Shown here: positions 196-15,788 of the stretch, in pieces
Layout: every line of letters starts with the position of its first letter
Position numbering within the stretch: the first letter of the stretch is position 1
Source: Rhizobiales bacterium SYSU XM002
GTDB taxonomy: Bacteria; Pseudomonadota; Alphaproteobacteria; Rhizobiales; Beijerinckiaceae
NCBI GenBank assembly: GCA_009846685.1
Contig: VWVY01000001.1
Location: forward strand, 186,001 to 250,000
Reading direction: 5' to 3'
Length of the DNA stretch: 64,000 nucleotides
Notes under the pieces: model-generated
What the model saw: only the letters and a program-made list of their open reading frames with translations
Told to the model about the DNA's origin: nothing
Database searches by the model: none
Position numbers and translations under genes: made by a program

Positions 196-1095
196 ATGAC
201 GGCAGTTGGCGTGATCGGCTTGGGCAATATGGGACGGGGCATGGCGCTGCGTCTCGCCAGCACCGCTCACCGTATCGCCGGCTATGATGTTTCTCGCGAG
301 GCGCGGCAGCAGATCGCAGCCGAGGGCATCGTGGTGGTCGAAACGCTCGCCGCACTCAGCGCGCGGAGTGATCTTCTCATTCTCTCGTTGCCGAACGCCG
401 AGATCGTCGAGGCGGTAATGAAGGGGGTGGACGGTGTTCTTGCCCATGCCCGGCCCGGCACGCTGATTGTCGATACGACGACCTCCTATCCGGCGACCAC
501 GAAAGAGGTGGCCGCGCTGGCGAAAGGGAAGGGGCTCGCCTTCATCGACGCACCGGTCAGCGGCGGACCGAAGGGCGCCCATGCCGGCACCATGACGATG
601 GTGATCGGCGGAGAGGCCGCAGACATCGCACGAGCCGAACCGATTCTCGAGGCGATCAGCGCGAAGCGCGTCCACGTCGGCCCGGTCGGGGCGGGGCATG
701 TCGCCAAGCTCGTCAACAACCTGCTTTGCGCATCCCACCTTCTGACGGCCGCCGAGGCTCTCGCAATCATTCGCGGCGCCGGGCTCGATCCGGCGCAGGT
801 TCTGGCGGGCGTCAATGCCGGCTCCGGCCGTTCGGGCGTGACGGAGATCAACTTGCCGAACTGGGTTCTGAACGGCGCCTTCAATTCCGGCTTCTCGATC
901 GGCCTGATGCGCAAGGACGTCGGCCTCGCGACCCGCCTCGTCGAAGAACTTGGACTCGATCTGCCGATGGCGACCGTCGTCGCCGGTATCTGGGAAGAGG
1001 CCTTTACCCGTCTCGGCGCCAGCACCGACTTCAACGCGATAACCGCGCACCCGGACTTCGCTTCATCGCCCTTCCACCAGAGAGGACGGGCGTGA
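196..1095 (+). CDS. Beta-hydroxyacid dehydrogenase (3-hydroxyisobutyrate dehydrogenase-like)
   Basis: A 299-residue NAD(P)-dependent oxidoreductase of the 6-phosphogluconate/3-hydroxyisobutyrate dehydrogenase family. It has the Rossmann motif GLGNMG (residues 8-13), the substrate-binding signature DAPVSGG (118-124), the catalytic lysine in GHVAKLVNN (K171) and a C-terminal KD (240-241). Such enzymes oxidise or reduce short beta-hydroxy acids: 3-hydroxyisobutyrate, tartronate semialdehyde, or similar. ATG at 196 is preferred over GTG at 193 because the purine-rich stretch near 183-190 sits at better distance. It overlaps the aldehyde dehydrogenase start by one base (TGATG), so the two are translationally coupled and probably act in sequence. 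The substrate cannot be fixed from sequence. Confidence 0.85.
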   Translation: MTAVGVIGLGNMGRGMALRLASTAHRIAGYDVSREARQQIAAEGIVVVETLAALSARSDLLILSLPNAEIVEAVMKGVDGVLAHARPGTLIVDTTTSYPATTKEVAALAKGKGLAFIDAPVSGGPKGAHAGTMTMVIGGEAADIARAEPILEAISAKRVHVGPVGAGHVAKLVNNLLCASHLLTAAEALAIIRGAGLDPAQVLAGVNAGSGRSGVTEINLPNWVLNGAFNSGFSIGLMRKDVGLATRLVEELGLDLPMATVVAGIWEEAFTRLGASTDFNAITAHPDFASSPFHQRGRA

Positions 1096-2618
1096 TGGCG
1101 GAGACGGATGCTCGCCTTGCCGGCTTTCTCGCGCCCTTCCTCCCCCGGGGTGTCGAGGCCGGCTCTTTTATTGACGGGGCGATGATTGCCGGGGAAGGCG
1201 CCGAAATCGGCGTCACCGACCCCGCGACCGGCAAGCCTCTCTACGCCTATCGCGATGCGGGCGAAGCGGTCGCCTGGCGTGCCGTGGAGGCGGCGGCCCT
1301 CGCGCAACCGGGCTGGAACACTCTGCCGGCGGCACGACGCGGACGGATCATGCAGGCGGTTGCGCGCATGGTCCTCGATCACGCTGAACCACTGGCGCAG
1401 CTTGAGGCGCTCTCCGCCGGCAAGCCGATCCGCGACACGCGCGTCGAGGTCGTCAAAGTCGCGGAAATGTTCGAATATTATGCCGGCTGGTGCGACAAGT
1501 TCCACGGCGACGTCATCCCCGTCCCAACCTCGCACCTCAATTACACCCGGCGCGAACCCTATGGCGTCGTGCTTCAGATTACGCCGTGGAACGCGCCGAT
1601 CTTTACCGCCGGGTGGCAGATCGCGCCGGCGCTCGCAACCGGCAATGCGGTGGTGCTGAAACCGTCGGAACTCACGCCGCTGACCTCGATCGTGCTCGCG
1701 GTGCTCGCGGAGAAGGCCGGTGTACCAAAGGGGGTCGTGAATGTCCTTGCGGGGCATGGTGCAACGAGTGCTCAGGCCGCGCTCGCGCATCCGGCTGTCC
1801 GCAAGGTCGTATTTGTCGGCTCGGTCGGCACGGGGCGCATCATCGCCGAGAGTGCCGCGCGACGGCTGATCCCGAGCCTGCTCGAGCTCGGCGGCAAGTC
1901 CGCCAACATCGTTTTCGCCGATGCCGATCTCGACCGCGCCGCCATCGGCGCGCAGTCCGCGGTCTTTTCGGGCGCCGGGCAGAGTTGTGTCGCCGGCTCG
2001 CGGCTTTTCGTCGAGCGCCCGGTCTATGACGAGTTCTGCCGGAAGGTCGCGTCCGGGGCCGGCAGGATCCGTGTCGGCGATCCGCTCGATCCCGAAACCG
2101 AAGTCGGCCCGATCAACAACGAGAAGCAGTATCGCCATGTGACTGGTGAGATCGCGCGGGCGATTGCCGAAGGTGGGCGGCTGGCGACACCTGCGCGCGA
2201 TCTGCCGGCAGGAGGTTATTTCGTCGCGCCGACCCTGGTCCGCGATCTATCGAACGGATCGGGCCTCGCCCGAACCGAGACGTTCGGCCCCGTGGTCGCT
2301 GCGATCCCGTTTGACACCGAGGCAGAAGCGGTCATGCTGGCCAATGACAGTGAATTCGGCCTCGCGGGGGCCGTCTGGACCCGCGATACCGGGCGCGCCC
2401 ATCGCGTTGCGGCGGCGGTTCGCGCCGGAACGTTCTGGATCAACGGCTACAAGACCATCCACGTTTCCTCGCCTTTCGGCGGTTTCGGCCTCAGCGGATA
2501 CGGTCGATCGAGCGGGGTGGAAGCGCTTTTCGAATACACGCAGACCAAGAGCGTCTGGGTCGAGACAGCCGCCGAACCGGCCGTCGCCTTCGGCTATGCC
2601 GCCGGTATCAGGGAGTGA
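1095..2618 (+). CDS. NAD(P)-dependent aldehyde dehydrogenase
   Basis: A 507-residue member of the aldehyde dehydrogenase superfamily, oxidising an aldehyde to the acid in the cytoplasm. All key residues are present: the oxyanion Asn in PWN (N166), the cofactor Lys (K189), the general-base Glu in LLELGG (E264) and the nucleophile Cys in GAGQSC (C298). The closing FGGFGLSGYGRSSG segment is typical. An open frame continues far upstream but overlaps the preceding gene; the ATG at 1095, in a TGATG overlap, is the natural start. In this cluster it could oxidise aldehydes released from beta-hydroxy amino or hydroxy acids. Betaine, succinate-semialdehyde and general aldehyde dehydrogenases cannot be told apart here. 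Confidence 0.9.
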   Translation: MAETDARLAGFLAPFLPRGVEAGSFIDGAMIAGEGAEIGVTDPATGKPLYAYRDAGEAVAWRAVEAAALAQPGWNTLPAARRGRIMQAVARMVLDHAEPLAQLEALSAGKPIRDTRVEVVKVAEMFEYYAGWCDKFHGDVIPVPTSHLNYTRREPYGVVLQITPWNAPIFTAGWQIAPALATGNAVVLKPSELTPLTSIVLAVLAEKAGVPKGVVNVLAGHGATSAQAALAHPAVRKVVFVGSVGTGRIIAESAARRLIPSLLELGGKSANIVFADADLDRAAIGAQSAVFSGAGQSCVAGSRLFVERPVYDEFCRKVASGAGRIRVGDPLDPETEVGPINNEKQYRHVTGEIARAIAEGGRLATPARDLPAGGYFVAPTLVRDLSNGSGLARTETFGPVVAAIPFDTEAEAVMLANDSEFGLAGAVWTRDTGRAHRVAAAVRAGTFWINGYKTIHVSSPFGGFGLSGYGRSSGVEALFEYTQTKSVWVETAAEPAVAFGYAAGIRE

Positions 2619-2627
2619 GATAAAGGC

Positions 2628-3857
2628 ATGCAGTCGAACATCCGCATTGACGGTCCGAGACTGGTTTCGCGGCTGATGTCGCTGGCGAAGATCGGAGCGA
2701 CGCCCGAAGGCGGTTGCCGTCGACTCGCGCTTTCCGACGAGGACAGGCAGGGACGTGACTGGCTCGTCGGCCAGATGCAGGCGCTCGGCCTTGAGGTGAA
2801 GATCGACGCGATCGGCAATATCGTCGGTATCCTGAAAGGGCAGGAGGATGGCCCGGCGGTCATCCTTGGCTCGCACATCGACACGGTCGGCTCCGGCGGA
2901 CGTTATGATGGCGCGCTCGGCGTGATCGGCGGGCTTGAAGTCGTCGCGACCCTGCGCGATCTCGGCCTCCAGCCAAAGCGGGATATCGCTGTCATCGCCT
3001 TCACCAATGAGGAGGGCGCGCGCTTCCACCCGGATATGCTCGGCTCCTATGTTTGGGCCGGTGGGCTTTCCGTGAAGGATGCCTATGCCGAGAAGGATGC
3101 GGACGGCGCAGTGCTCGGTGAGGAGCTCAGGCGCATCGGCTATGACGGGCCGGAAAAGCCGGGCTTTCTCAAGGCGCACGCCTATTTTGAACTCCACATC
3201 GAGCAGGGGCCGGTGTTGGAGCAGGAGGGCGGCGGTATCGGCGCCGTGACGGGCATCCAGGCGATCACCTGGCTCGAACTCGTGCTGGGCGGCCAGCCGA
3301 ACCACGGCGGCACCACGCCGATGAAATACCGCAAGGATGCCGGGCTGATGGCCGCGCGCATCAATCTCTTCGCGCATGAGTTGACCCATCGCATTCCCGG
3401 CCAGCTCGCGAACATGGGCTTCATTCGCACCGAGCCCGGCAACGTCAACGTGGTACCCGAGCGCGTCACTGTGACGCTCGACATGCGCAATCCGTCGGAC
3501 GAAAATCTCGCCGAGGCCGAGGCAGCACTGCGCGATTTCATCGCCCGCGAATGCCCGAATTACGGCATCACCTGCTCGATCCGCGATCTCGCGCGCTTCC
3601 CCGCGACGCCCTTCGCCGAGCCGATGATCGCCCGGGTCGAGGCGGCGGCGAAAACGCTCGGCCTTCCGGTCCGGCGGATGATCTCCGGCGCCGGGCACGA
3701 CGCGCAGATGATGGCGCGGCTCTGCCCCACCGGCATGGTCTTCGTGCCCTCGATCGGTGGACTCTCGCACAACCCGAAGGAATATTCGACCGACGAGGAC
3801 ATTGTCGCCGGTGCGAACATTCTGCTCCACGTCGCCTGGGACGCCGCCAATGCCTGA
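2628..3857 (+). CDS. hyuC: M20-family amidohydrolase, N-carbamoyl-L-amino acid hydrolase/allantoate amidohydrolase-like
   Basis: A 409-residue di-metal hydrolase of the HyuC/AllC/beta-ureidopropionase branch of peptidase family M20. Metal ligands are visible: H83 and D85 in GSHIDTVGSGG, D94, the Glu pair E128/E129 in FTNEEG, H190 in ELHIEQG and a C-terminal His in GGLSHNPKEYS. These enzymes cleave a carbamoyl (ureido) or related group from an amino acid. It lies 9 bases after the aldehyde dehydrogenase and overlaps the amidase by 8 bases. The cluster also encodes a second, unrelated carbamoylase (12127), suggesting substrates carrying N-carbamoyl or N-acyl groups. HyuC, AllC and ureidopropionase cannot be separated with certainty, so the symbol is tentative. 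Confidence 0.8.
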   Translation: MQSNIRIDGPRLVSRLMSLAKIGATPEGGCRRLALSDEDRQGRDWLVGQMQALGLEVKIDAIGNIVGILKGQEDGPAVILGSHIDTVGSGGRYDGALGVIGGLEVVATLRDLGLQPKRDIAVIAFTNEEGARFHPDMLGSYVWAGGLSVKDAYAEKDADGAVLGEELRRIGYDGPEKPGFLKAHAYFELHIEQGPVLEQEGGGIGAVTGIQAITWLELVLGGQPNHGGTTPMKYRKDAGLMAARINLFAHELTHRIPGQLANMGFIRTEPGNVNVVPERVTVTLDMRNPSDENLAEAEAALRDFIARECPNYGITCSIRDLARFPATPFAEPMIARVEAAAKTLGLPVRRMISGAGHDAQMMARLCPTGMVFVPSIGGLSHNPKEYSTDEDIVAGANILLHVAWDAANA

Positions 3858-5295
3858 TATTGCCCGCCTCGATGCAGTGAAGATGGCGGAAGGCTTTCGA
3901 GCCGGCACGTTGTCGCCCGTGGAGGTTGCGACCGACATCCTCGCGCGGATCGATCGGTTCGAGCCGGACATCAACGCCTTTACTCATGTCGGGCACAAGG
4001 AAGCGCTTAAGGCGGCGGGCGCGGCGGAAGCGCGCTACCGCGCCGGCACCGCGCTCGGCCCGCTCGATGGCGTGCCGGTGACGATCAAGGACAATCTCGC
4101 CGTTGCCGGCTGGCCGAACCGGCGCGGTTCGGCAATCTCGGATCCGTCGCCCGCGAAGGAGGATTGCCCTGTCGCGGAGAAGTTGCGCGCGGCAGGCTGC
4201 GTGATCCTCGGCAAGACGACCATGCCGGAATACGGTTGGAAGGGCACCTCGGATTCGCCGCTCTCTGGCAAGACACTCAACCCGTGGGATCTCTCCAAGA
4301 CCACCGGGGGGTCTTCCGCAGGGGCAGTCGCGGCAGCGGCGCTCAACCTCGGCACGATTCATATCGGCACCGACGGCGCGGGCTCCATCCGTATTCCTGC
4401 CGGGTTCACCGGGGTTTTCGGCATCAAGCCGACTTACGGCCATGTGCCGGCCTATCCGGTCTCGACGATGGGTTTTCTCGCCCATCTCGGCCCACTGACG
4501 CGCACTGTGCGTGATGCCGCACTGGCGATGAACATCATCGGCCGGCCCGATCCGCGTGACATGACCGCGAGCCTGCCGGTCGAGGATTATCTCGATGGGC
4601 TGGAAGACGGCGTCAAAGGGCTCAGGATCGCCTATTCGCCGAAACTCGGGCTTGATGTGGAGGTGCATCCCGATATCGCGCGGCTGGTGCGCGCGGCCGT
4701 CGAAACCTTCGCGCAGCTTGGCGCCGAGATCATCGAGGCTGATCCCGACTTCGCCGATCCGATCGCACCGCTGATGACGCTCTGGGCCGGTGGCGCCGCG
4801 CTCGCGCTCAAGGGCATCTCCGCGTCCGAGCGCGTGAAGATGGATCCTGGCCTCGTCGCGGTTGCGGAAATGGGAGAGGGGATCTCGGCGGCCAGTTACG
4901 TCGATGCTCTGCTCTACCAGCGCAATGCGCTCGCGGCGCGGATGGCGGCCTTCCACGCCCGCTACGATCTTCTCTTGTCGCCGACCCTGCCGCTGCCTGC
5001 TTTTGAGGCAGGCCGCCTCACGCCTGCGCATGGACGCTACGGCGAGGATTGGACCCGCTGGACCCCCTTCACCTATCCCTTCAACCTGACGCAGCAGCCC
5101 GCGGCGTCGATTCCCTGCGGCCTGACGGCGGAGGGTTTGCCCGCGGGCCTCCAGATCGTCGGTGCCTTCGGTGCAGACCGCCTCGTTCTGCGTGCCGCGC
5201 GCGCGTTCGAAGCCGTTTCCGCCCTTCCGCGTCTTTCGACGCCTCGGAGGCTTGGCCGAAACGAGGCCGACTACGTTTCAAACACTGTCCAGTAG
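3850..5295 (+). CDS. Amidase signature family hydrolase
   Basis: A 481-residue amidase-signature enzyme hydrolysing a C-N amide bond. The Ser-cisSer-Lys triad is intact: K80 in VTIKDN, S155 in the GGSSAG loop and nucleophile S179 in GTDGAGSIR. The 24-residue Ser-Ser spacing matches the family. ATG at 3850 overlaps the 3' end of the M20 hydrolase by 8 bases and is preferred to an upstream in-frame start inside that gene. It is the last gene before the sigma-54 promoter at 5320 and the ABC importer, and is probably part of the same deamidating pathway. Family members range from aryl-amidases to GatA-like proteins; there is no gatB or gatC nearby, so a catabolic amidase is favoured. Confidence 0.88.
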   Translation: MPDIARLDAVKMAEGFRAGTLSPVEVATDILARIDRFEPDINAFTHVGHKEALKAAGAAEARYRAGTALGPLDGVPVTIKDNLAVAGWPNRRGSAISDPSPAKEDCPVAEKLRAAGCVILGKTTMPEYGWKGTSDSPLSGKTLNPWDLSKTTGGSSAGAVAAAALNLGTIHIGTDGAGSIRIPAGFTGVFGIKPTYGHVPAYPVSTMGFLAHLGPLTRTVRDAALAMNIIGRPDPRDMTASLPVEDYLDGLEDGVKGLRIAYSPKLGLDVEVHPDIARLVRAAVETFAQLGAEIIEADPDFADPIAPLMTLWAGGAALALKGISASERVKMDPGLVAVAEMGEGISAASYVDALLYQRNALAARMAAFHARYDLLLSPTLPLPAFEAGRLTPAHGRYGEDWTRWTPFTYPFNLTQQPAASIPCGLTAEGLPAGLQIVGAFGADRLVLRAARAFEAVSALPRLSTPRRLGRNEADYVSNTVQ

Positions 5296-5319
5296 TTCAA
5301 GAAGGAGAAGAAAGACCGC

Positions 5320-5335
5320 TGGCATACCCCTTGCA
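5320..5335 (+). promoter_or_regulatory. Sigma-54 (-24/-12) promoter upstream of ABC importer
   Basis: TGGCATACCCCTTGCA matches the RpoN consensus TGGCAC-N5-TTGC[AT] at all but one defined position, with exact GG-N10-GC spacing (GG at 5321-5322, GC at 5333-5334). It lies in the 133-base gap after the amidase, about 94 bases upstream of the binding-protein start. Transcription from here would make expression of the importer and downstream enzymes depend on an RpoN activator, for example general nitrogen control. No clear upstream activator site was seen. Confidence 0.75.
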
Positions 5336-5428: not shown

Positions 5429-7027
5429 ATGGATCGCAGGACTTTTATCAAATCCACGGGTGGAGCGGCGCTGCTGGCCGCGAGCGGCGGGCTGGCGACG
5501 CCGGCCCTGTCACAGGGGGCGAGCAACAAGGTGCTGCGCTTCGTGCCGCAATCGAACCTCGCGAATTTCGACCCGATCTGGGGCACGCAATATGTCGTCC
5601 GCAACGCGGCGGCGCTTGTCTGGGACACACTCTACGGCGTCGACGACAAGCTCGTTCCGCAGCGGCAGATGGTCGAGAAGGAAGAAGTTTCGGCTGACGG
5701 TCTCGTCTGGACCTTCAAGCTGCGCGCCGGCATGAAATTCCATGATGGTGAGCCTGTCCGCGCCAAGGATGCGGTGCAGAGCCTGAAGCGCTGGGCCGCG
5801 CGCGACCCGATGGGCCTGATGATCACCGCGATCCAGAACGAACTCGTCGCGGTTGACGATCTTACTTTCCGCTGGGCGCTCAAGAAGCCCTATCCGAAGA
5901 TGTTGCTCGCGCTCGGCAAGAACAACTCGCCGTGCTCCTTCATCATGCCGGAACGCATCGCGCAGACCGATCCGTTCAAGCAGATCACGGAATACATCGG
6001 CTCCGGCCCGATGAAGTTCAAGAAAGAGGAATGGGTGCCGGGCGCCAAGGCCGTGTTCGAGCGCTTCGCCGACTACAAGCCGCGCGATGAGGCCGCTTCC
6101 TGGCTTGCGGGCGGCAAGAAGATGCTGGTCGACCGCATCGAATGGATCATCATGCCCGACCCGGCGACCGCCTCTGCCGCGCTCCAGAACGGCGAGGTCG
6201 ACTGGTGGGAGAACCCGATCTCTGATCTTGTGCCGGTGCTCAAGTCGAACCGGAACATCATGGTCGATATCGGCGATCCGCTCGGCAATATCGGCGCCTT
6301 CCGCATGAACCACCTGCATCCGCCTTTCAACAAGGTGAAGATCCGCCGCGCGATCCTCGCTGCGATGAACCAGGAAGACTACATGCGGGGCATCGTCGGC
6401 GACGACAACAACCTCTGGAAGCCGATTCCGGGCTTCTTTACCCCCGGAACACCGCTTTACACTGAAGCGGGCGGCGAAATCCTCAAGATGAAGTCGATCG
6501 ACGCCGGCAAGAAGCTGCTGGCAGAGGGCGGTTACGCCGGCGAACCGGTGACCTGCGTCGTCGCGCAGGATCAGCCAAACCTCAAGCCGATGGGCGAGGT
6601 GACCGCGGATCTCCTCAAGAAGCTTGGCATGAACGTCGATTTCGTCGCGACCGACTGGGGTACTGTCGGCGCACGCCGCGCACAGAAGACACCGCCGGGG
6701 CAGGGTGGCTGGAACATGTTCCATACTTGGCACGCCGGCGCTGACTGCCTCAACCCCGCTCCCTACACCGCCATCCGCGGCAATGGCGAGAAGGCCTGGT
6801 TCGGCTGGCCCGACAGCCCTGAGGTGGAGAAGCAGGTTTCTGCCTGGTTCGACGCCAAGGATCTGACCGAGGAGAAGGCAACCATTGCGCTGCTCAACAA
6901 GGCCGCGCTTGAAGATGTCATCTTCGCACCGACCGGTTTCTTCCTCAGCTACACGGCCTGGCGGAAGAACGTAACCGGCATCACCAAGGGGCCGCTGCCC
7001 TTCTTCTGGGGCGTCGCGAAGAGCTGA
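5429..7027 (+). CDS. ABC transporter substrate-binding protein, dipeptide/oligopeptide family (SBP_bac_5)
   Basis: A 532-residue periplasmic binding protein of the DppA/OppA family. The N-terminus MDRRTFIKSTGGAALLAA is a twin-arginine (RRTFIK) signal peptide, with likely cleavage after ALSQG, so it is probably exported folded. The mature part shows the typical opening LRFVPQSNLANFDPIWGTQY and the 'FHDGEPVRAKDAV' block. ATG 5429 begins the Tat signal and follows a purine-rich stretch; an upstream in-frame extension is rejected. It is the first gene of a five-gene importer, followed by a strong hairpin (7046-7075). Ligands of this family go beyond peptides; the neighbouring hydrolases suggest N-substituted amino acids or small peptides. 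Confidence 0.92.
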   Translation: MDRRTFIKSTGGAALLAASGGLATPALSQGASNKVLRFVPQSNLANFDPIWGTQYVVRNAAALVWDTLYGVDDKLVPQRQMVEKEEVSADGLVWTFKLRAGMKFHDGEPVRAKDAVQSLKRWAARDPMGLMITAIQNELVAVDDLTFRWALKKPYPKMLLALGKNNSPCSFIMPERIAQTDPFKQITEYIGSGPMKFKKEEWVPGAKAVFERFADYKPRDEAASWLAGGKKMLVDRIEWIIMPDPATASAALQNGEVDWWENPISDLVPVLKSNRNIMVDIGDPLGNIGAFRMNHLHPPFNKVKIRRAILAAMNQEDYMRGIVGDDNNLWKPIPGFFTPGTPLYTEAGGEILKMKSIDAGKKLLAEGGYAGEPVTCVVAQDQPNLKPMGEVTADLLKKLGMNVDFVATDWGTVGARRAQKTPPGQGGWNMFHTWHAGADCLNPAPYTAIRGNGEKAWFGWPDSPEVEKQVSAWFDAKDLTEEKATIALLNKAALEDVIFAPTGFFLSYTAWRKNVTGITKGPLPFFWGVAKS

Positions 7028-7045: not shown

Positions 7046-7075
7046 CCGCCGCCGCACTCCCCCGTGCGGCGGCGG
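7046..7075 (+). terminator. Intercistronic stem-loop after binding-protein gene
   Basis: A 12-bp perfect GC-rich stem (7046-7057 with 7064-7075) with a TCCCCC loop, 19 bases after the stop codon, followed by GTTT. The weak T-run suggests partial termination or 3'-end protection of the upstream message rather than full termination, favouring excess binding protein over permease. Equivalent hairpins follow the three other binding-protein genes in this window. Confidence 0.65.
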
Positions 7076-7126: not shown

Positions 7127-8068
7127 ATGCTGGCATTCATTGTCCGCCGCGTCATCGCCACCATTCCCGTGATGGCCTTCGTGGCGCTGTTCGTATTCTC
7201 GCTGCTTTACATCGCGCCGGGCGATCCGGCGGCGGTGATTGCCGGCGATCAGGCAACGCCGGCCGATGTGGAGCGCATCCGGCAGGGGCTGGGGCTCGAC
7301 CGGCCATTTCTGGTGCGGTTCGGTGAATGGCTGTTCCGCGTTCTTCGCGGCGATCTCGGCATCTCGATCTTCACCTCGCTGCCTGTTTCCCAACTGATCG
7401 CCCAACGCATCGAACCCACCGTTTCGCTGATGGTGGTGACCCTGCTGCTCGCGATCCTGATCGCCGTGCCGCTCGGTGTGCTCGCGGCGTGGAAGGCGAA
7501 TACCTGGATTGACCGGCTCGCGATGGCCTTCTGCGTCACCGGCTTCTCGGTCCCCGTTTTCGTGGTCGGCTACCTTCTCGCCTATGTCTTCGCGCTGAAA
7601 CTCGATTGGCTGCCCGTTCAGGGCTACACCCCGCTCAGTCAGGGCGTTTGGCCGTGGTTCGAGAACCTCATTCTCCCGGCGATCACGCTTGGCTTCGTCT
7701 ATATCGCGCTGATCGCGCGCATCACCCGCGCCTCGATGCTTGAAGTGCTGCAGCAAGACTACATCCGCACGGCCCGTTCGAAGGGCGTGGGGCAGACCTC
7801 GATCCTCTTCCTACACGCGCTGAAGAACGCCGCGATCCCGGTCGTGACGGTAATCGGTATCGGCATCGCGCTGCTGATCGGCGGAGCCGTGGTGACGGAG
7901 AGCGTCTTTGCTATTCCCGGCCTCGGCCGCCTGACAGTCGACGCGATCCTGCGGCGCGATTACCCGGTCATCCAGGGCGTCGTGCTGATGTTTTCGTTCG
8001 TCTATGTGCTCATCAATCTCCTCGTCGATCTCGTCTACACGCTGATCGACCCGCGTATCCGGTACTGA
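7127..8068 (+). CDS. ABC transporter permease, DppB-type
   Basis: A 313-residue inner-membrane permease of the binding-protein-dependent transport family. It opens with MLAFIVRRVIATIPVMAFVA, the typical first helix of DppB/OppB, followed by the 'LYIAPGDPAA' periplasmic segment, about six hydrophobic helices, and the ATPase-coupling EAA loop around 'RTARSKGVGQTSILFLHALK'. It ends 'LVYTLIDPRIRY', a common DppB terminus. One base separates it from the next permease, so the pair is cotranslated and should form the heterodimeric channel of this importer. Confidence 0.92.
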   Translation: MLAFIVRRVIATIPVMAFVALFVFSLLYIAPGDPAAVIAGDQATPADVERIRQGLGLDRPFLVRFGEWLFRVLRGDLGISIFTSLPVSQLIAQRIEPTVSLMVVTLLLAILIAVPLGVLAAWKANTWIDRLAMAFCVTGFSVPVFVVGYLLAYVFALKLDWLPVQGYTPLSQGVWPWFENLILPAITLGFVYIALIARITRASMLEVLQQDYIRTARSKGVGQTSILFLHALKNAAIPVVTVIGIGIALLIGGAVVTESVFAIPGLGRLTVDAILRRDYPVIQGVVLMFSFVYVLINLLVDLVYTLIDPRIRY

Positions 8069-8069
8069 C

Positions 8070-8987
8070 ATGACGAAGCCGCTCGACCCCACCGAGACTG
8101 CCGGCCTCGTTGTTGCCCCGCAACTGCCGGATATCCTGCCTGATCGCAAACCCTTGAAGGGTGTCGTCGGCTTCTGTCGCCGCAACCCGTCGATCGCGAT
8201 CGGCGCGTTCCTGCTGGCGATCATGTTCGTGATGGCCATCGCCGCGCCTTACCTCTGGACCGTGGACCCGACCGCCCTCGCGCCCTCGCGCCGGACGCGC
8301 ATTCCCTCGGCGGACTACTGGTTCGGCACCGACATGTTCGGCCGCGACATCTATTCCCGCGTCGTCTATGGCGCGCGGATCTCGCTCATCGTCGGGTTTT
8401 CGGTCGCGATTCTCGCATCCATCGTCGGGCTGGTGATCGGCCTCGTCTCGGGCATGGTGCGATGGGCGGACAGCCTGATCATGCGCGTCATCGATGGCAT
8501 GATGTCGATCCCGCCGATCTTGCTCGCCATCGCGCTGATGGCGCTGACGCGTGGCTCGGTCGGCAACGTCATCATCGCGATCACCATTGCCGAAATCCCG
8601 CGCGTCGCGCGATTGGTGCGCGGCGTGGTGCTCACCTTGCGCGAACAGCCCTATGTCGAGGCCGCGATCGCTGCCGGCACACGGACGCCGATGCTGATCC
8701 TGCGCCATATCCTTCCGAATACCTTCGCGCCGATGAGCGTGCAGGCGACTTATATCTGCGCCTCGGCGATGATCGTGGAGGCGATCCTCTCCTTCATCGG
8801 CGCGGGGATCCCGCCGACCATCCCCTCTTGGGGCAACATCATGGCCGACGGGCGCACGCTCTGGCAGGTGAAGCCGCATATCGTGATGTTCCCGGCGATT
8901 TTCCTCTCGATCACGGTTCTCGCGGTCAACCTCGTCGGTGACGGGCTGCGCGACGTGCTCGACCCCCGCATGGCCAAGAAGATCTGA
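8070..8987 (+). CDS. ABC transporter permease, DppC-type
   Basis: A 305-residue partner permease. It has the DppC layout: a cytoplasmic N-terminal tail of about 40 residues, one helix, then the '[22 protein letters not shown]' type of block, five more helices, and the EAA loop ('[17 protein letters not shown]'). The ending '[13 protein letters not shown]' type is typical (here [16 protein letters not shown]). It forms the channel with the DppB-type protein encoded one base upstream. The ATPase gene follows 14 bases later behind GGGGAGGG, a strong ribosome-binding site. Confidence 0.92.
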
Positions 8988-9001: not shown

Positions 9002-9991
9002 ATGGCACTTCTCGAAATCGATCAGCTCCAGACCCATTTCCGGACCCCGGACGGGATCAATCGCGCCGTGGATGGCGTGACCTTTTCCATCGGAGCCGGG
9101 CAGACGCTGGCCGTCGTTGGCGAGTCGGGCTGCGGCAAGTCCGTCACCGCGATGTCGATCCTGCGCCTCATCCCCGAGCCGCCGGGCAAAATGGCGGGCG
9201 CGATCCGCTTCCAGGGCCGCAACCTGCTCGATTGCACCCCGGACGAGATGCGCGCGATCCGCGGCAACGAGATCTCGATGATCTTCCAGGAGCCGATGAC
9301 CTCGCTCAATCCGGTGCTGACGATCGGTCGTCAGATCGGCGAGTCGCTCCAGTTGCATCAGAACCTCTCCAAGAAGGAGGCTCACGCCCGCGCGGTCGAG
9401 ATGCTGCGGCTCGTCGGCATTCCCGCGCCCGAGCGACGTGTCGACGAATACCCGCACCAGCTTTCCGGCGGCATGCGCCAACGCGTGATGATCGCCATCG
9501 CGCTTGCCTGTTCGCCGAAACTCCTGATCGCCGACGAGCCCACCACCGCGCTCGACGTGACCATTCAGGCACAGATCCTCGATCTGATGCGCGATCTGAA
9601 GGAACGAGTCGGGGCGGCGATCATGCTCATCACGCATGATCTTGGTGTTGTTGCCGAGGTGGCCGATCAGGTGGTGGTCATGTATGCCGGTCGCAAGGTC
9701 GAGGAAGCACCGGTGAAGCAGCTCTTCCGTGCGCCCAAGCACCCTTATACGCAAGGTCTGCTCGGCGCCGTGCCGCGCCTCGGCTCCTCGCAGACCGGCA
9801 CTACGACGCGCCTTGCCGAAATTCCCGGCCTTGTCCCCAGCCTCAAGAAACGCATCGAGGGCTGCGTCTTCGCCGGTCGCTGCCCGAAGGTCACGGACAT
9901 CTGCCGCAAGCATGCGCCGGGCCTCGAGGAAAAGGCGCCAGGCCAGATCGCGGCCTGTCACCATGCCGAGAAGGAGCTGGTTCCAGCATGA
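9002..9991 (+). CDS. ABC transporter ATP-binding protein, DppD-type
   Basis: A 329-residue nucleotide-binding subunit. Walker A is GESGCGKS, the Q-loop is in [10 protein letters not shown], the signature is LSGGMRQR, Walker B is [12 protein letters not shown], and the switch His is in LITHDLG. The C-terminal oligopeptide-transporter extension carries Cys residues ([18 protein letters not shown]) found in Dpp/Opp ATPases, where they can bind an Fe-S cluster. It overlaps the DppF-type gene by four bases (ATGA), consistent with a DppD-DppF heterodimer energising the permeases above. Confidence 0.93.
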
Positions 9992-11025
9992 ATGCGCCCC
10001 ATCGCCACTCCGGCCCGGTGCTGGAGGTCAACGATCTCAAGAAGCACTTCGCGATCACCGGCGGATTTCTCTCCACGGTCGTCGGCCATGTCTACGCGGT
10101 CGACGGCGTTTCCTTCGCCATCGAGCGGGGCGAAACGCTCTCGCTTGTCGGCGAGAGCGGCTGCGGGAAATCGACCGTCGGCAAGGCGATCCTGCGCCTG
10201 TTCACGATCACCGATGGGCAGGTGGTGCTCAACGGCGAGCGGATCGACGAGTTGTCGGATGCCGCATTGCGCCCTCTTCGTCAGCGCATTCAGGTCGTGT
10301 TTCAGGACCCGTTTTCCTCGCTCAACCCCCGCATGCGCGTGCGCGACATTCTCGCCGAGCCGATCACCAACTTCGGGTTGGCGAAGAACAAGGGCGAGAT
10401 CGATGCACGGCTGGCAAAACTCATGGACAAGGTCGGCCTGCCGCGCGATGCGGTGGATCGCTGGCCGCATGAATTCTCCGGTGGCCAGCGCCAGCGCATC
10501 GGCATCGCTCGCGCGCTGGCGGCGGAGCCGGATATCATCATCTGCGACGAGGCGGTCTCCGCGCTCGATGTCTCGGTGAAGGCACAGATCGTCAATCTCC
10601 TGTGCGATCTCCAGCAGGAGCTTGGTCTCGCGCTGCTGTTCATCAGCCACGATCTCGCCATCGTCGAGCACATGACGCATCGCGTCGCGGTGATGTATCT
10701 CGGCAAGATCGTCGAGATCGGCACGCGCGACGCCATCTTCTCGGCGCCGATGCACCCGTATACGCAGGCGCTGCTTTCGGCCGTGCCGGTCCCGGACCCG
10801 GAGGCCTCGCGCGAGCGCATCCTTCTGACAGGCGACGTACCGAGCCCGATCAATCCGCCGAAAGGCTGCCGTTTCAACACGCGCTGTCCGCACGCCTTCG
10901 ACCGTTGCCGGAGCGAGGAGCCGAAACTGCGGATGATGGCCGAGAAGCACGAGGCGGCCTGCCACCTGCACGATCTGCCGGCGAGCGAGAACCCTGTTCG
11001 GAGAGAGTACAAAAACAATGGATGA
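9988..11025 (+). CDS. ABC transporter ATP-binding protein, DppF-type
   Basis: A 345-residue second ATPase subunit. Walker A is GESGCGKS, the Q-loop [10 protein letters not shown], the signature FSGGQRQR, Walker [13 protein letters not shown] and the switch His in FISHDLA. It has the C-terminal Cys-containing Dpp/Opp extension ([15 protein letters not shown]). It overlaps its partner (ATGA at 9988) and the next gene, diaminopropionate ammonia-lyase, by eight bases. That tight overlap ties the importer directly to the catabolic enzyme, arguing that the transported compound is, or yields, the lyase substrate. Confidence 0.93.
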
Positions 11026-12130
11026 TTTCGTCCTCAACCCCGCGCTCGAACGGGGAATGGCGTATGGCGAGGAACAGCGCGCGATCCTATCTCTGGCGAA
11101 GGCGCGGGAGGCCCGCGAGCACATCGCGCGGTGGGACGGCTATGGGGCGACACCGCTGCATGATCTCATCGAACTCGCTCATCGGCACCGTGTCGCTCAG
11201 GTTCTCTACAAGGATGAGGGCAAACGCTTCTCTCTCCGTAGTTTCAAGGCGCTCGGCGGGGCCTATGCGGTTGATCGTCTCGTGGCGAAGAACGGCGCGG
11301 CGGGCCTGACGGTCACCTGCGCGACCGACGGCAATCACGGTCGGGCTGTTGCCTGGGGGGCTGCGCGCGCTGGAGCAAAGGCTGTGATCTACGTTCATGA
11401 GGGCGTCAGTGAAGGTCGCGCGGAGGCGATCCGCTCGTTTGGAGCGACGGTGGTGCGTGAGGGCTCGAACTACGACGCCTCCGTCCGCGCCTCCACCGAG
11501 GCGGCAGCACGCAACGGCTGGGAGATTGTCTCGGATACCTCCTGGCCCGGTTACGAGGACGTTCCCCGTGATGTGATGCAGGGCTACGCCGTGCTGGCGA
11601 TGGAGGCGAGCGAACAGGGCGCGGATCCGACCCATATCTTTATTCAGGGCGGTGTCGGCGGTGTCGCCGCTGCGATGCTCTCCTACTATTGGGAGAAGTT
11701 CGGTGCCAACCGCCCGAAGCTGATCGTCGTCGAGCCGGACAAGGCCGCCTGCCTCTTCGAGAGTGCGAAGAGCCGTCGCGTTGAATTCGTCGAGGGTGAT
11801 CTCGATACCGTCATGGCCGGGCTTGCCTGTGGTGAGCCCTCGATCCTCGCGTGGCAACTGCTCGGCCCGGGTGCCGATGCCTTCATGACCGTAACGGATC
11901 AGGAGGCGATCGCCGCGATGCAACTGCTGGCGGAGTTCCATGTCGTCGGCGGAGAATCGGGCGTCGCGGGGCTGGCCGGCTTCCTCAAGGCGGCGGCGAA
12001 CCCGAATATCCGCACCGCGCTCGAACTCGATCCCACCTCACGCGTGCTGCTGATCGGCACCGAGGGCGCGACCGATCCTGCACTTTACACCGAATTCGTC
12101 GGCATGACGCCGGAGGAGATCGAGGCATGA
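11018..12130 (+). CDS. Diaminopropionate ammonia-lyase (PLP, fold type II)
   Basis: A 370-residue PLP enzyme resembling E. coli YgeX, which converts D- or L-2,3-diaminopropionate to pyruvate and two ammonia via 2-aminoacrylate. The PLP lysine is K77 in RFSLRSFKALGG, the characteristic motif of this family. TCATDGNHGRAVAW and the glycine loop QGGVGGVAAA follow. Length is slightly below YgeX (about 398). In E. coli ygeX lies with an M20 peptidase gene (ygeY) and a hydantoinase-like gene (hyuA); the present cluster has analogous partners. It overlaps the DppF gene and, by ATGA, the D-carbamoylase gene. Threonine/serine dehydratase is the alternative, less likely given the motif. Confidence 0.85.
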   Translation: MDDFVLNPALERGMAYGEEQRAILSLAKAREAREHIARWDGYGATPLHDLIELAHRHRVAQVLYKDEGKRFSLRSFKALGGAYAVDRLVAKNGAAGLTVTCATDGNHGRAVAWGAARAGAKAVIYVHEGVSEGRAEAIRSFGATVVREGSNYDASVRASTEAAARNGWEIVSDTSWPGYEDVPRDVMQGYAVLAMEASEQGADPTHIFIQGGVGGVAAAMLSYYWEKFGANRPKLIVVEPDKAACLFESAKSRRVEFVEGDLDTVMAGLACGEPSILAWQLLGPGADAFMTVTDQEAIAAMQLLAEFHVVGGESGVAGLAGFLKAAANPNIRTALELDPTSRVLLIGTEGATDPALYTEFVGMTPEEIEA

Positions 12131-13074
12131 GCCGTGTGATTACCGTCGGCGCCGCGCAGCTTGGTGCCATCCAGCGGGCCGACAGCCGGGCCAGGGTCGT
12201 CGCCCGCATGGTCGATCTTCTCAAGCAGGCAAGGTCCAACGGCTGCGATCTCGTCGCCTTCCCGGAACTCGCACTGACGACCTTCTTCCCGCGCTGGTTC
12301 ATGGAAGATCAGAGCGAGATCGACACCTTCTTCGAGCGCGAGATGCCCTCGAACGAAACCGCGCCTCTGTTCAACGCCGCGCACGAGTTCGGCATAGCCT
12401 TCTCGCTCGGCTTCGCGGAACTGACCGGGGAAGAAGGGCGCACCCGCCGCTTCAACACGCAGATCATCGTCGGCAAGGACGGGAAGATCATCGGCAAATA
12501 TCGCAAGATCCACCTGCCGGGGCACCGTGAGCACGAGCCTTGGCGTGCCTTCCAGCACTTGGAGAAGCGCTATTTTGAGGTCGGAAACCTCTCCTGGCCG
12601 GTCAACCGTGCGCCGGCGGATCTGCAATCCGGTCTGTTCGGTCAGATGATCTGCAACGACCGTCGCTGGCCGGAAAGCTACCGTGTGATGGGCCTTCAGG
12701 GCGTGGAGATGATCCTTCTCGGCTACAACACGCCCGTCCACAATCCACCGGCGCCCTCCCATGATCGCCTCGGTGACTTCCACAACCATCTCGTGATGCA
12801 GGCTGGCGCCTACCAGAACGCGACATGGGTCGTCGGCGTGGCCAAGTGCGGCGTCGAGGAGGGCTGCGAGATGATCGGTGGTTCCTGCATCGCCGCACCA
12901 ACCGGAGAGATCGTCGCGCAGGCGATCACCCGCGAGGACGAACTCGTTGTCGCACGCTGCGATCTCGATCTCGGCCAGAGCTACAAGAATTCCACCTTCA
13001 ATTTCGCCCGCCATCGCGAGCCGGACCAATACCGGATGATCGTCGAGCGCAAGGGCGCGATCCTCCCCGAATAG
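12127..13074 (+). CDS. Carbon-nitrogen hydrolase, N-carbamoyl-D-amino acid hydrolase-like
   Basis: A 315-residue nitrilase-superfamily enzyme. The Glu-Lys-Cys triad is E47 (FPELALTTFF), K127 (KYRKIHLPG) and C176 (GQMICNDRRWPE). The ICNDRRWPE block and near-identical triad positions are those of D-carbamoylases (E47/K127/C172 in the Agrobacterium enzyme), which release CO2, NH3 and a D-amino acid from N-carbamoyl-D-amino acids. It starts in an ATGA overlap with the diaminopropionate lyase gene. No classical hydantoinase lies beside it, although the deacetylase-type amidohydrolase downstream could play that part. Substrate is inferred from the family. Confidence 0.87.
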   Translation: MSRVITVGAAQLGAIQRADSRARVVARMVDLLKQARSNGCDLVAFPELALTTFFPRWFMEDQSEIDTFFEREMPSNETAPLFNAAHEFGIAFSLGFAELTGEEGRTRRFNTQIIVGKDGKIIGKYRKIHLPGHREHEPWRAFQHLEKRYFEVGNLSWPVNRAPADLQSGLFGQMICNDRRWPESYRVMGLQGVEMILLGYNTPVHNPPAPSHDRLGDFHNHLVMQAGAYQNATWVVGVAKCGVEEGCEMIGGSCIAAPTGEIVAQAITREDELVVARCDLDLGQSYKNSTFNFARHREPDQYRMIVERKGAILPE

Positions 13075-13093
13075 GCACCACAGGAGCCGGACA

Positions 13094-14254
13094 ATGCACG
13101 ATCTTATTCTGAAGGGTGGCCGGGTCATCGATCCGAGCCAGAAGCACGATGGCATCCTTGATGTTGCCTTCACCGGCGGCAAGGTATCCGGTTTCGGCAA
13201 GGACCTGAAGGGCGCAAAGGAAATCCGCGATGTTTCCGGCTACATCGTCACGCCGGGCCTGATCGACATGCACACGCATGTCTATTGGGGCGGCACTTCG
13301 CTCGGCATTGATGCGGACGAGTTCTGCCGCATGTCCGGCGTCACGACCTCGGTCGATACCGGTTCGGCGGGACCGGGCAACTGGCCCGGCTTCCGCAAGC
13401 ACGTGATCGAACACAGCCAGGCGCGCATCCTCGCCTATCTCCATGTTTCCCACGCCGGTATCTACGGTTTCGACCATCGCGTGATGGTGGGCGAGAGTGT
13501 CGATCTCAGGATGATGAACCCGATCGCCTGCGCCGAGGTGGCGGACGCCAACCGCGACATGATCGTCGGCATCAAGGTGCGCGTCGGCCTCCATGCCTCG
13601 GGCGAGCAGGGCACTGCGCCGCTCAACATCGCGCTTCAGGTCGCCGAGGAAGTCGGCATGCCGCTGATGTGTCATATCGACCATCCACCGCCTTCCTACG
13701 AGGAGGTGCTCGATATGCTCCGCCCCGGCGATGTGCTGACCCACGCCTTCCGCCCGTTCCCGAATGCGCCCGCGACCGCGCAGGGCACCGTGAAACCGGC
13801 GGTGCAGGCGGCGCGCAAACGTGGCGTGCTGTTCGACATTGGCCACGGCAAGGGGTCATTCTCGTTCAAGACGACGCGCGCGATGCTGGCCAACGGCTTC
13901 GAGCCGGATACGATCTCGTCCGACGTTCACGCGCTCTGCATCAACGGCCCGGCCTTCGATCAGGTGACGACCATGTCGAAGTTCCTCTGCATGGGGATGC
14001 CCCTTTACGATGTGGTGAAATGCTCGACCGTGAATGCAGGGTTGATGCTCAAGCGCCCGGAATATGGCTCGCTCAAGGTGGGTTCGCTCGGCGATGCAAC
14101 GATCCTCACCGTCAAGGAGGGTAAGTTCGATTACGTCGATGTGGTTGGTGAACATCTCATCGGAAATCAGAAGATTATTTCAGAAGGTGTTGTTCTTAAA
14201 GGAAAATGGTGGCATCCGAAACGTTCGTCCCGTTTCCCGAAGGTGAGCGCATGA
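13094..14254 (+). CDS. Amidohydrolase/deacetylase family metallohydrolase
   Basis: A 386-residue amidohydrolase-superfamily protein. It has the HxH metal pair (H60, H62 in GLIDMHTHV), a probable bridging lysine (K161 in VGIKVRVG), further ligands H194 and H217, and the catalytic Asp D277 in SSDVHAL. The sequence resembles the 'amidohydrolase/deacetylase' group that includes Atu3266 and EF0837, for which ester/amide deacetylation (acetyl-R-mandelate) has been reported, rather than dihydropyrimidinases. Here it may remove an acyl group from, or open a ring in, an imported amino-acid derivative. It follows the D-carbamoylase by 19 bases and overlaps the RidA-like gene (ATGA at 14251). Confidence 0.82.
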   Translation: MHDLILKGGRVIDPSQKHDGILDVAFTGGKVSGFGKDLKGAKEIRDVSGYIVTPGLIDMHTHVYWGGTSLGIDADEFCRMSGVTTSVDTGSAGPGNWPGFRKHVIEHSQARILAYLHVSHAGIYGFDHRVMVGESVDLRMMNPIACAEVADANRDMIVGIKVRVGLHASGEQGTAPLNIALQVAEEVGMPLMCHIDHPPPSYEEVLDMLRPGDVLTHAFRPFPNAPATAQGTVKPAVQAARKRGVLFDIGHGKGSFSFKTTRAMLANGFEPDTISSDVHALCINGPAFDQVTTMSKFLCMGMPLYDVVKCSTVNAGLMLKRPEYGSLKVGSLGDATILTVKEGKFDYVDVVGEHLIGNQKIISEGVVLKGKWWHPKRSSRFPKVSA

Positions 14255-14712
14255 CCCCCGAACAACGCCTCGAACAGCTTGGCATCGTGCTGCCGCCGGT
14301 CCCCGTGCCGGTCGCGAACTATGTGCCGTTCCGCTTTGCCGGCAACCTGCTCTATCTCTCCGGGCAGGGACCGAAGCGGGCAGACGGAACCTACCGCCAA
14401 GGACGGCTCGGCAAGGATATCTCGGTTGAAGACGCCTATCAGGAAGCGCGTCTCACCGGCCTGCAATTGCTGGCGACCGCCAAGGCTGCGCTTGGCGAAC
14501 TTTCCCGTATCGAAGCGACGATCAAGCTCCTCGGCATGGTCAACGCCGAGCCTGAATTCTCCGATCATCCCAAGGTCATCAACGGCTGCTCGGACCTCTT
14601 CGTGGAGGTGCTGGGCGAAGCGGGGCGGCATGCGCGCTCGGCGGTCGGCATGGGCTCGCTCCCCAACCGCATGGCGGTCGAGATCGAAGCGATCTTTCTG
14701 GTGAAACCATGA
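14251..14712 (+). CDS. RidA/YjgF/UK114-family protein
   Basis: A 153-residue member of the longer RidA subgroup, marked by the N-terminal 'LGIVLPPVPVPVANYVP' segment, the core LLYLSGQGP and the end GSLPNRMAVEIEAIFLV. Classical RidA hydrolyses reactive enamine/imine intermediates released by PLP dehydratases. Its position between a 2-aminoacrylate-forming lyase and a putative D-serine dehydratase/aldolase fits that detoxifying role exactly. ATG 14251 in the ATGA overlap is chosen over an upstream in-frame ATG at 14206 inside the previous gene. Its own stop overlaps the next gene by four bases. Whether this subgroup keeps deaminase activity is not certain. Confidence 0.85.
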   Translation: MTPEQRLEQLGIVLPPVPVPVANYVPFRFAGNLLYLSGQGPKRADGTYRQGRLGKDISVEDAYQEARLTGLQLLATAKAALGELSRIEATIKLLGMVNAEPEFSDHPKVINGCSDLFVEVLGEAGRHARSAVGMGSLPNRMAVEIEAIFLVKP

Positions 14713-15788
14713 CGGAGTTGAAATCCCGCATCGCCCGCGAGATCGGCACGCCGGCGCTGGTCGTCGATATGGATGTCGTCGAGCGTAATATCGCCAGGAC
14801 ACAGGCGCTCTGCGACGCGGCGGGCGTGGCCAATCGCCCGCACATCAAGACTCATAAATCCGTCGAGTTGATGCGGATGCAACTCGCCGCCGGCGCCAAG
14901 GGTATCACCTGCCAGAAACTCGGTGAGGCCGAAGTGATGGCGGACGGCGGTGCCGACGACATCTTCATCTCCTACAACCTCCTCGGCGAGGAGAAGATGA
15001 GCAGGCTCGCCGCGCTGATGGGCAGGGTGACGATGCGCGTTGCCGCCGATAATCCGACTGTGGTGGAGCATCTCTCCCGTGCGGCGGCGCAGGCGGGACG
15101 CGACCTTCTCGTTCGTGTCGAATGCGATACGGGGCGGAAGCGGGCAGGGGTTGAAACCGCCGCCGAAGCGATCGCGCTCGCGAAGCTGATCGTCGCAACG
15201 CCGGGGCTGACCTTCGACGGCCTCATGCTCTATCCGCCGGAGGACGCCGCGGCCGTGACCAACAAATTCGTCGAGGAGGTGCGGGCCGCTCTGGCCGAAG
15301 CGGGCATCGGCATTCCCTCGATCTCGACCGGGGGCACGCCGAACCTTCTGAACCTCGGCCAGATCGCGGGGGCGACCGAGCATCGCGCCGGTACCTCGAT
15401 CTTCAACGATCGCATGATGATGGCGGCTGGCTATGCGCAGGAAGCGGAATGCGCCTTGCAGGTCTACACGACCGTTGTCAGCCGGGGCGCGCCGGAACGC
15501 GGCATTCTCGACGCCGGCTCGAAAACGCTGACCACCGAGACAGGCTGGGGCCTCAAGGGGCACGGTCTCATTCTAGAGCATCCAGAGGCTGAGGTCGCGC
15601 GCTTTTCCGAGGAGCACGGCATTCTCGATCTCGCGCGCTGCAACGACCGGCCGAAGGTGGGCGATGTGGTGCGCGTCATCCCCAACCACATCTGCCCGGT
15701 CGTCAATGTTGTGGGAACGCTCGTTTTCGTTCGTGGCGGTGAGATCCTCGGCACGAGCGATGTCGAGGCGCGCGGCAAATTGACCTGA
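14709..15788 (+). CDS. D-threonine aldolase/D-serine dehydratase family PLP enzyme (fold type III)
   Basis: A 359-residue alanine-racemase-fold enzyme. The PLP lysine is K47 in RPHIKTHKS, and the STGGTPN phosphate-binding loop lies at 206-212. A metal pair H327-x-C329 is seen in IPNHICPVVN. Known D-threonine aldolases use His-x-Asp, whereas eukaryotic-type D-serine dehydratase and D-threo-3-hydroxyaspartate dehydratase use His-x-Cys, so a dehydratase making pyruvate or oxaloacetate plus ammonia is at least as likely as the aldolase usually named for this family. It is last in the catabolic cluster, overlapping the RidA-like gene by ATGA. It ends one base before the convergent acetyltransferase gene. 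Confidence 0.83.
   Translation: MTELKSRIAREIGTPALVVDMDVVERNIARTQALCDAAGVANRPHIKTHKSVELMRMQLAAGAKGITCQKLGEAEVMADGGADDIFISYNLLGEEKMSRLAALMGRVTMRVAADNPTVVEHLSRAAAQAGRDLLVRVECDTGRKRAGVETAAEAIALAKLIVATPGLTFDGLMLYPPEDAAAVTNKFVEEVRAALAEAGIGIPSISTGGTPNLLNLGQIAGATEHRAGTSIFNDRMMMAAGYAQEAECALQVYTTVVSRGAPERGILDAGSKTLTTETGWGLKGHGLILEHPEAEVARFSEEHGILDLARCNDRPKVGDVVRVIPNHICPVVNVVGTLVFVRGGEILGTSDVEARGKLT

Follow-up and report, generated by a model that had tools for sequence, protein, structure and literature searches.

The question raised by this locus is what a bacterium would take up and degrade with two carbamoylases of different families encoded beside a diaminopropionate ammonia-lyase (DAPAL). The locus, 14 consecutive plus-strand genes, spans positions 196-15788 of the window, by which we mean the whole 64,000-nucleotide stretch analysed here (Rhizobiales bacterium SYSU XM002, GenBank assembly GCA_009846685.1, contig VWVY01000001.1, forward-strand positions 186,001 to 250,000). 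An earlier note, made from the sequence alone, had read it as a possible undescribed catabolic island for N-substituted D- or diamino acids. Every gene named there is confirmed on that strand and within those limits; two 5' oxidoreductase genes and a divergent LysR gene were missing from its list, and its interpretation as a whole is partly supported. We tentatively propose a LysR-controlled operon that would import an open-chain N-carbamoyl derivative of a beta-substituted alanine in D configuration and degrade it to pyruvate and ammonia, with (R)-2,3-diureidopropionate or D-albizziin as the best candidate substrate.

Core enzymes of the operon

The genes follow one another in the order HIBADH-type dehydrogenase, aldehyde dehydrogenase, M20 carbamoylase, amidase, family-5 solute-binding protein, DppB, DppC, DppD, DppF, DAPAL, N-carbamoyl-D-amino-acid hydrolase (D-carbamoylase), COG3964-type amidohydrolase, RidA-superfamily protein and D-specific pyridoxal 5'-phosphate (PLP) enzyme. 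The DAPAL gene (11018-12130) scores 451 with the model NF006058, over a cut-off of 276, and fails the TIGR03528 equivalog (325 vs a cut-off of 532). Its product is about 40% identical to E. coli YgeX, and residues K77 and D104 are invariant in all 14 aligned sequences, YgeX among them; in the E. coli enzyme we take the PLP lysine to be K77 and the catalytic aspartate to be D120. The next gene (12127-13074) encodes a nitrilase-fold D-carbamoylase that matches D-carbamoylases in the PDB, including 8i99, 1fo6 and 1erz, with E values of 2e-112 to 2e-123, and carries the Glu-Lys-Cys triad and substrate residues of that family (E47, K127, C176, H129, H144, R179, R180 and H219). The roles of these residues are taken from PMC3546935, where the characterised D-carbamoylases that were aligned use N-carbamoyl-alpha-amino acids, with no description of any acting on N-carbamoyl-beta-amino acids.

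The second carbamoylase, an M20 hydantoinase/carbamoylase-family amidase (2628-3857), scores 395 with TIGR01879, over a cut-off of 204, and has the beta-ureidopropionase 8c46 and L-carbamoylases as PDB relatives, with allantoate amidohydrolase as a weaker match. The likeness to E. coli ygeX-ygeY drawn in the earlier note stands for the YgeX family and falls for YgeY, which belongs to another M20 subfamily (23.6 bits with the YgeY model NF009555, vs a cut-off of 321). Because the characterised D-carbamoylases aligned in that paper are of the alpha type and the solved M20 relatives include beta-ureidopropionases, we expect a division of labour in which the former would act on the 2-ureido and the latter on the 3-ureido group. 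A D-specific alpha-carbamoylase beside DAPAL predicts both the D configuration of the substrate and the enzyme for its 2-ureido group.

Two further products bear directly on the fate of the carbon skeleton. The RidA-superfamily protein (14251-14712; PF14588, 90 bits; PF01042) has the arginine, R129, expected of an active RidA, a role that we assume for this residue. DAPAL is listed among the generators of 2-aminoacrylate in Salmonella, in the consulted parts of PMC9127364, which gives RidA a place in the operon; the end products named in the earlier note, ammonia and pyruvate, are supported in this respect. The last gene (14709-15788; PF14031, PF01168 and PDB alignments) encodes a PLP enzyme of the D-serine dehydratase/D-threonine aldolase fold whose nearest relatives overall are D-threonine aldolases and BhcC. 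Its metal motif, H327-x-C329, is that of D-serine dehydratase, whereas the four aligned aldolases have H-x-D.

Recurrence of the gene set

If these genes serve one pathway, they should be found together elsewhere. A survey of the class, covering 385 genomes, gave a DAPAL match at E <1e-60 in 71. Forty DAPAL-centred regions, drawn mainly from the head of that match list, contain a D-carbamoylase in nine cases, an M20 gene in nine and at least one of them in 14. A second set of loci comprises the best 80 of 583 D-carbamoylase relatives from an alignment-based scan of named genomes. Within 3 kb of the D-carbamoylase, DAPAL is present in 25 of these 80 loci and M20 in 30, and both occur in 18 loci, proportions that are biased upward because the query was built from DAPAL-linked D-carbamoylases. 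Among the 54 loci with at least 3 kb on either side, the corresponding 3-kb counts are 18 for DAPAL and 20 for M20. Where the genes adjoin, they share an exact 4-bp overlap in 14 of 15 DAPAL-M20 pairs and 9 of 11 DAPAL-D-carbamoylase pairs, as judged from script-picked starts.

A less biased co-occurrence test, uncorrected for relatedness, covered 398 Pseudomonadota genomes, with D-carbamoylase in 22 and DAPAL in 48. Both occur in 9, where 2.7 would be expected (p 0.0004); leaving out the window genome changes the count to 8 of 21 (p 0.0013). The two genes are neighbours in three of the nine genomes, namely the window genome, G617 and G455 (G and L numbers are our handles for genomes and loci), and in G617 and G455 the M20 gene sits between them. 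Window-type operons that include the COG3964, RidA and PLP genes are found in L093 and L094, DAPAL-D-carbamoylase-COG3964 cores, some with RidA, in L096, L097, L099, L102 and L103, and the pair of dehydrogenase and aldehyde dehydrogenase is found again in the L115 and L187 islands. Since the same pairs recur in distant Alpha- and Betaproteobacteria, the association is not a matter of chance. The neighbourhood search, which the earlier note had proposed as a check, thereby supports an operon for the catabolism of N-substituted D- or diamino acids, in that DAPAL and both carbamoylases recur together. The one other member of the genus sampled, G650, has neither DAPAL nor D-carbamoylase, and no clean empty site can be defined in the genus because the gene downstream has merely distant homologues (best 46%).

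We considered how DAPAL linkage is distributed on a tree of 105 D-carbamoylases, 41 of them with DAPAL in reach; the tree was made by a quick method with no bootstrap, and labels near contig ends may be missed. A separate clade of seven rows (SH-aLRT 100) has no DAPAL neighbour and includes L089, L090 and L195. Across the rest of the tree, DAPAL linkage is scattered, with at least 20 changes. A hydantoinase-like gene is in reach in 7 of the 105 loci, three of which are L089, L090 and L195; another three, L081, L143 and L165, are placed with DAPAL-linked rows, and the seventh, L196, forms a long outlier. The L165 enzyme groups with that of the DAPAL-M20-linked L140 (95).

Other arrangements of D-carbamoylase genes were also seen. 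In a betaproteobacterial locus, L105 (10936-14948), whose order is shared by L107 and L108, a TRAP importer is followed by M20 and D-carbamoylase with no recognised DAPAL; a threonine-synthase-like PALP protein, a second PALP protein and an L-serine ammonia-lyase are present instead, in family scans made for L105 alone. The family of the second PALP protein also adjoins YgeX in L172. In Reyranella and similar alphaproteobacterial contigs (L124, L126, L127, L128, L130, L133, L134, L139 and L146), D-carbamoylase lies behind a gene of the NAD-dependent epimerase family, a Pfam assignment seen for L124 alone, and in several of them M20 lies upstream.

Links to uric-acid and hydantoin genes

The substrate that would best use two carbamoylases and DAPAL is already on record. 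According to PMC12507026, E. coli and C. difficile have a reductive pathway that leads from 5-ureidomethylhydantoin through 2,3-diureidopropionate, albizziin and 2,3-diaminopropionate to pyruvate. There YgeW or UacY removes the 2-ureido group, YgeY forms diaminopropionate and YgeX pyruvate, albizziin is an intermediate shown in vitro, and E. coli DAPAL is equally active on either diaminopropionate isomer. The R, hence D, configuration has been proposed, and the order of ureido removal is unsettled (PMC12990295). The word "undescribed" in the earlier note was accordingly too strong, since this chemistry was published in 2025. Its candidate, albizziine, came close, as albizziin belongs to the published route, although doubly carbamoylated diaminopropionate fits two carbamoylases better. 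The line it drew between ureido acids and nucleobases is blurred, the best-fitting substrate being itself a product of purine breakdown.

Two contigs of metagenome-assembled genomes (MAGs) place D-carbamoylase among uric-acid genes. In L165 (Rhodoferax), it lies on the opposite strand amid YgfK (1363, cut-off 835), a hydantoinase (607, cut-off 393) and YgeW (763, cut-off 453), with carbamate kinase and, under the equivalog cut-offs, xanthine-dehydrogenase-family subunits as further neighbours and a xanthine permease next to it on the same strand. In L172 (SAR324), an M20 gene of the NF006769 subfamily and D-carbamoylase are divergent to YgeX, YgeY, YgeW and carbamate kinase. L143 has the order hydantoinase-M20-D-carbamoylase, and on a Rhizobium plasmid (L081) a hydantoinase, about 5 kb off, and an importer lie opposite DAPAL-M20-D-carbamoylase. 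In Cupriavidus L147, with the same order in L141, a purine-permease-family gene and an SsnA/TRZ-type amidohydrolase, both under the NCBIfam cut-offs in L147, are divergent to DAPAL-M20-D-carbamoylase-MFS-YgeY. Loci tied to uric-acid genes are few, and L165, L172 and L143 are all MAG contigs.

Three genes beside the L081 cluster (17381-21477), with annotations as aldehyde dehydrogenases and a (2Fe-2S)-binding protein, may encode a molybdenum hydroxylase. We dropped these xanthine-dehydrogenase-like genes as evidence, because one of the three starts with an apparent cytochrome c motif; the large subunit, judged by eye from its first 60 residues, resembles an exported oxidoreductase.

The window genome itself (3.46 Mb in 15 contigs) has no match over cut-off for the following enzymes of the uric-acid pathway. 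The best scores are 213 bits for hydantoinase (HyuA; cut-off 393), 144.5 for SsnA (455.5), 186 for YgfK (835; the alternative UacX was not searched), 26.6 for YgeW (500; the alternative UacY was not searched) and 91.8 for YgeY-family M20 proteins (TIGR03526; 321.5), and none of the 14 operon genes is a hydantoinase or dihydropyrimidinase. For this reason we expect the substrate in this organism to be an open-chain ureido acid that has to be imported.

Proposed route

In the route we propose, the substrate would enter through the Dpp-type importer, the D-carbamoylase would take the 2-ureido group to give D-albizziin, CO2 and NH3, and the M20 carbamoylase would take the 3-ureido group to give D-2,3-diaminopropionate. 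DAPAL would eliminate ammonia and RidA would hydrolyse 2-aminoacrylate toward pyruvate, while the H-x-C PLP enzyme and the pair of dehydrogenase and aldehyde dehydrogenase may process a related beta-hydroxy (D-serine-like) product. By its definition, the reductive uric-acid pathway excludes the operon, which may still function as that pathway's lower half does, using other carbamoylases. A stronger claim, which we consider possible but doubtful, is that it represents a third, purely hydrolytic way to strip (R)-2,3-diureidopropionate, carried as a stand-alone uptake-catabolism operon by Proteobacteria without the upper uric-acid pathway. Novelty would lie in the enzyme set and in the importer-linked, stand-alone form: N-carbamoyl-D-amino acid and diaminopropionate were not found joined in the papers searched, and the consulted parts of the literature on diureidopropionate contain no such operon.

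If that stronger claim is correct, ureido intermediates of purine breakdown, or their equivalents, would pass between microbes, and a large D-carbamoylase subfamily known chiefly as an industrial catalyst would have a natural role. The recurrent DAPAL-M20-D-carbamoylase order points to a concrete, testable physiological substrate, and it bears on the order in which the ureido groups are cleaved and on the stereochemistry, both listed as open points for the reductive uric-acid route (PMC12990295).

A number of observations, to which the upward bias of the 80 loci must be added, weigh against the proposed route. The window M20 enzyme passes two models named allantoate amidohydrolase (NF006769, 461 over a cut-off of 452; NF006771, 414 over 399), and allantoate may be its substrate. 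The amidase, COG3964 enzyme, dehydrogenase and aldehyde dehydrogenase receive no step. Among the nine genomes with both genes, DAPAL and D-carbamoylase are separated by about 10 kb in G028 and by 31 kb in G066 and sit on separate contigs in G726, G425, G107 and G159, and YgfK is over cut-off in none of the nine. On the tree, the correlation of DAPAL with M20 is not significant by independent pairs (median p 0.125). G726, which belongs to the same family, and Raskinella L095 have importer, D-carbamoylase and COG3964 genes in an operon that lacks DAPAL; the near relatives L192 and L095, with DAPAL-less operons, are left unexplained by the route. In Bradyrhizobium L156 and L169, the order is dehydrogenase-aldehyde dehydrogenase-D-carbamoylase-importer, with neither DAPAL nor M20. 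The L165 DAPAL (12382-12870) is an N-terminal fragment of 162 residues, which could reflect decay or assembly. Because L165 and L172 both keep YgeW, D-carbamoylase is no simple replacement for it there. Finally, hydantoinase is over cut-off in 14 of the 19 carrier genomes tested (all but the window genome, G726, G028, G224 and G455), and open-chain import therefore need not hold for other carriers.

Alternative readings

The main rival, and a serious one even though we judge it unlikely, is a broader scavenging of N-carbamoyl or N-acyl D-amino acids with D-serine (or D-threonine) as the main product. DAPAL, the PLP enzyme and RidA would then form a D-serine deamination set, the dehydrogenase and aldehyde dehydrogenase would form an oxidative branch, and diureidopropionate would be incidental. 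The H-x-C motif of D-serine dehydratase, which the window PLP enzyme shares with five of five relatives checked, argues for this, as does G726, whose DAPAL-less operon keeps RidA and the PLP enzyme together with the importer, D-carbamoylase and COG3964 genes. Serine dehydrogenases exist in the HIBADH family, and a wider diet with D-serine-type products fits the amidase, the COG3964 enzyme, the dehydrogenase, the aldehyde dehydrogenase and the DAPAL-less L192 and L095. Scavenging of this kind, however, leaves unexplained the second (M20) carbamoylase, the recurrent DAPAL-M20-D-carbamoylase order and the urate-gene neighbours in L165 and L172.

Breakdown of free L-albizziin, or of another plant derivative of 2,3-diaminopropionate, by M20 and DAPAL is an improbable alternative. 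DAPAL-M20 pairs with no D-carbamoylase in the displayed region do occur on Rhizobium and Agrobacterium plasmids, and YgeY and YgeX together turn albizziin into pyruvate in the consulted parts of PMC12507026. Such a diet, however, would give no role to the D-carbamoylase or to the D-specific PLP enzyme of the window.

A classical hydantoin-utilisation (hyu) cluster has both of the window's carbamoylases among its typical enzymes. D-carbamoylases and hydantoinases serve together in the production of D-amino acids. As of 2012, it was described as unclear what the companion hydantoinases do in nature (PMC3546935). The hydantoinase-like genes in reach in seven D-carbamoylase loci, and the hydantoinases of 14 carrier genomes, lend this reading some force. 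The separation of L089, L090 and L195 in a DAPAL-free clade counts against it, but only in part, as L081, L143 and L165 are interspersed with DAPAL-linked enzymes; with only three of the seven hydantoinase-linked loci set apart, the tree alone leaves a hyu function possible. We set it aside for the window, as a very improbable reading, because no hydantoinase in this genome exceeds the cut-off.

A chance or historical assembly of genes with no shared pathway, which would suit the patchy distribution and the state of G650, has next to no likelihood given the overlapping genes and their recurrence across Alpha- and Betaproteobacteria.

Importer, accessory enzymes and flanking DNA

The importer assigned to the first step of the proposed route comprises a family-5 solute-binding protein (5429-7027; PF00496), DppB-type (7127-8068; PF00528, PF19300) and DppC-type (8070-8987; PF00528) permeases, and DppD-type (9002-9991) and DppF-type (9988-11025) ATPases, each with PF00005 and PF08352. 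A structure model of the binding protein (mean pLDDT 85) has 8vdx as its closest solved structure, at 40% sequence identity, and gives no hint of the ligand because the 8vdx title names none. In Bradyrhizobium L156, L163 and L169, loci without DAPAL or M20, the importer binding protein is 77% identical to that of the window.

Upstream of the M20 gene lie a beta-hydroxyacid dehydrogenase of the HIBADH/tartronate-semialdehyde-reductase family (196-1095; PF03446, PF14833), for which every listed NCBIfam model is under cut-off, and an aldehyde dehydrogenase (1095-2618; PF00171, 537 bits), whose best models are of the betaine-aldehyde type and for which each of the 25 NCBIfam models shown is under cut-off. 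The amidase signature-family gene (3850-5295) scores 608 with NF004815, over a cut-off of 506, on the longer frame 3757-5295. The amidohydrolase/deacetylase at 13094-14254 scores 443 with NF006689, over a cut-off of 371, and keeps its candidate metal ligands in seven of seven aligned sequences; both the label COG3964 and the choice of metal-binding residues are our presumption.

Overlaps occur at 7 of the 13 gene junctions, four of them 4-bp ATGA overlaps and three of 1 or 8 bp, and gaps exceed 20 bp at just two junctions (133 and 99 bp), lengths that depend on our choice of gene starts; the earlier description of the genes as joined "largely with ATGA overlaps" was too strong. The 99-bp gap, between the binding-protein and first permease genes, contains a strong hairpin on the plus strand (7047-7074; 30-nt fold, -27.6 kcal/mol). 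All 14 genes may form a single transcript. The N-terminal end of a LysR-family regulator occupies positions 1-72 on the minus strand, with the remainder upstream of the window (Pfam HTH_1 and LysR_substrate on L009:13140-14105), and a perfect inverted repeat with 5-bp arms and a 7-bp gap (90-106), between this divergent gene and the operon, is a candidate LysR site, as judged from its sequence. Past 15788, the next likely gene encodes a GNAT-domain protein on the opposite strand. The base composition (operon GC 64.1% vs 63.6%) gives no sign of foreign origin.

Behind the LysR gene, upstream of the window, lies a second catabolic-looking cluster (L009:4075-13130) with genes for a VOC dioxygenase, LysR, a DUF1932 dehydrogenase, PrpF, PIG-L, RraA-like and YCII proteins and a Peripla_BP_6 binding protein.

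Comparison with known systems

The PLP enzyme is homologous to BhcC of the beta-hydroxyaspartate cycle (BhcABCD). We rejected this cycle, as the enzyme scores 190 with the BhcC model, vs a cut-off of 690, and has H-x-C in place of H-x-D; the window DAPAL gene scores 59 with the BhcB model (cut-off 550). With hyu clusters the window has the D-carbamoylase and M20 carbamoylase families in common. It differs in the lack of a hydantoinase over cut-off anywhere in the genome, in the presence of DAPAL and in a D-carbamoylase that falls outside the L089/L090/L195 clade. The E. coli ygeW-ygeX-ygeY-hyuA locus likewise has a ygeX homologue clustered with an M20 hydrolase, but the M20 subfamily is another, the D-carbamoylase and importer differ, and the two ygeX products are only about 40% identical.

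Closest of all is the reductive uric-acid pathway, or more exactly its lower half; the operon has a DAPAL of the same family and, like that pathway, would strip two ureido groups from 2,3-diureidopropionate and end in pyruvate. A complete uric-acid pathway in this organism was rejected, since SsnA, YgfK, HyuA, YgeW and YgeY are all under cut-off in the window genome (XdhD, like UacY, was not searched). For the 2-ureido group, the published pathway uses the carbamoyltransferase YgeW or the D-aminoacylase UacY, whereas the window would use a nitrilase-fold D-carbamoylase; its M20 enzyme is YgeY, whereas that of the window belongs to the TIGR01879 family. Unlike that pathway, the window operon also carries its own importer, RidA and PLP enzyme.

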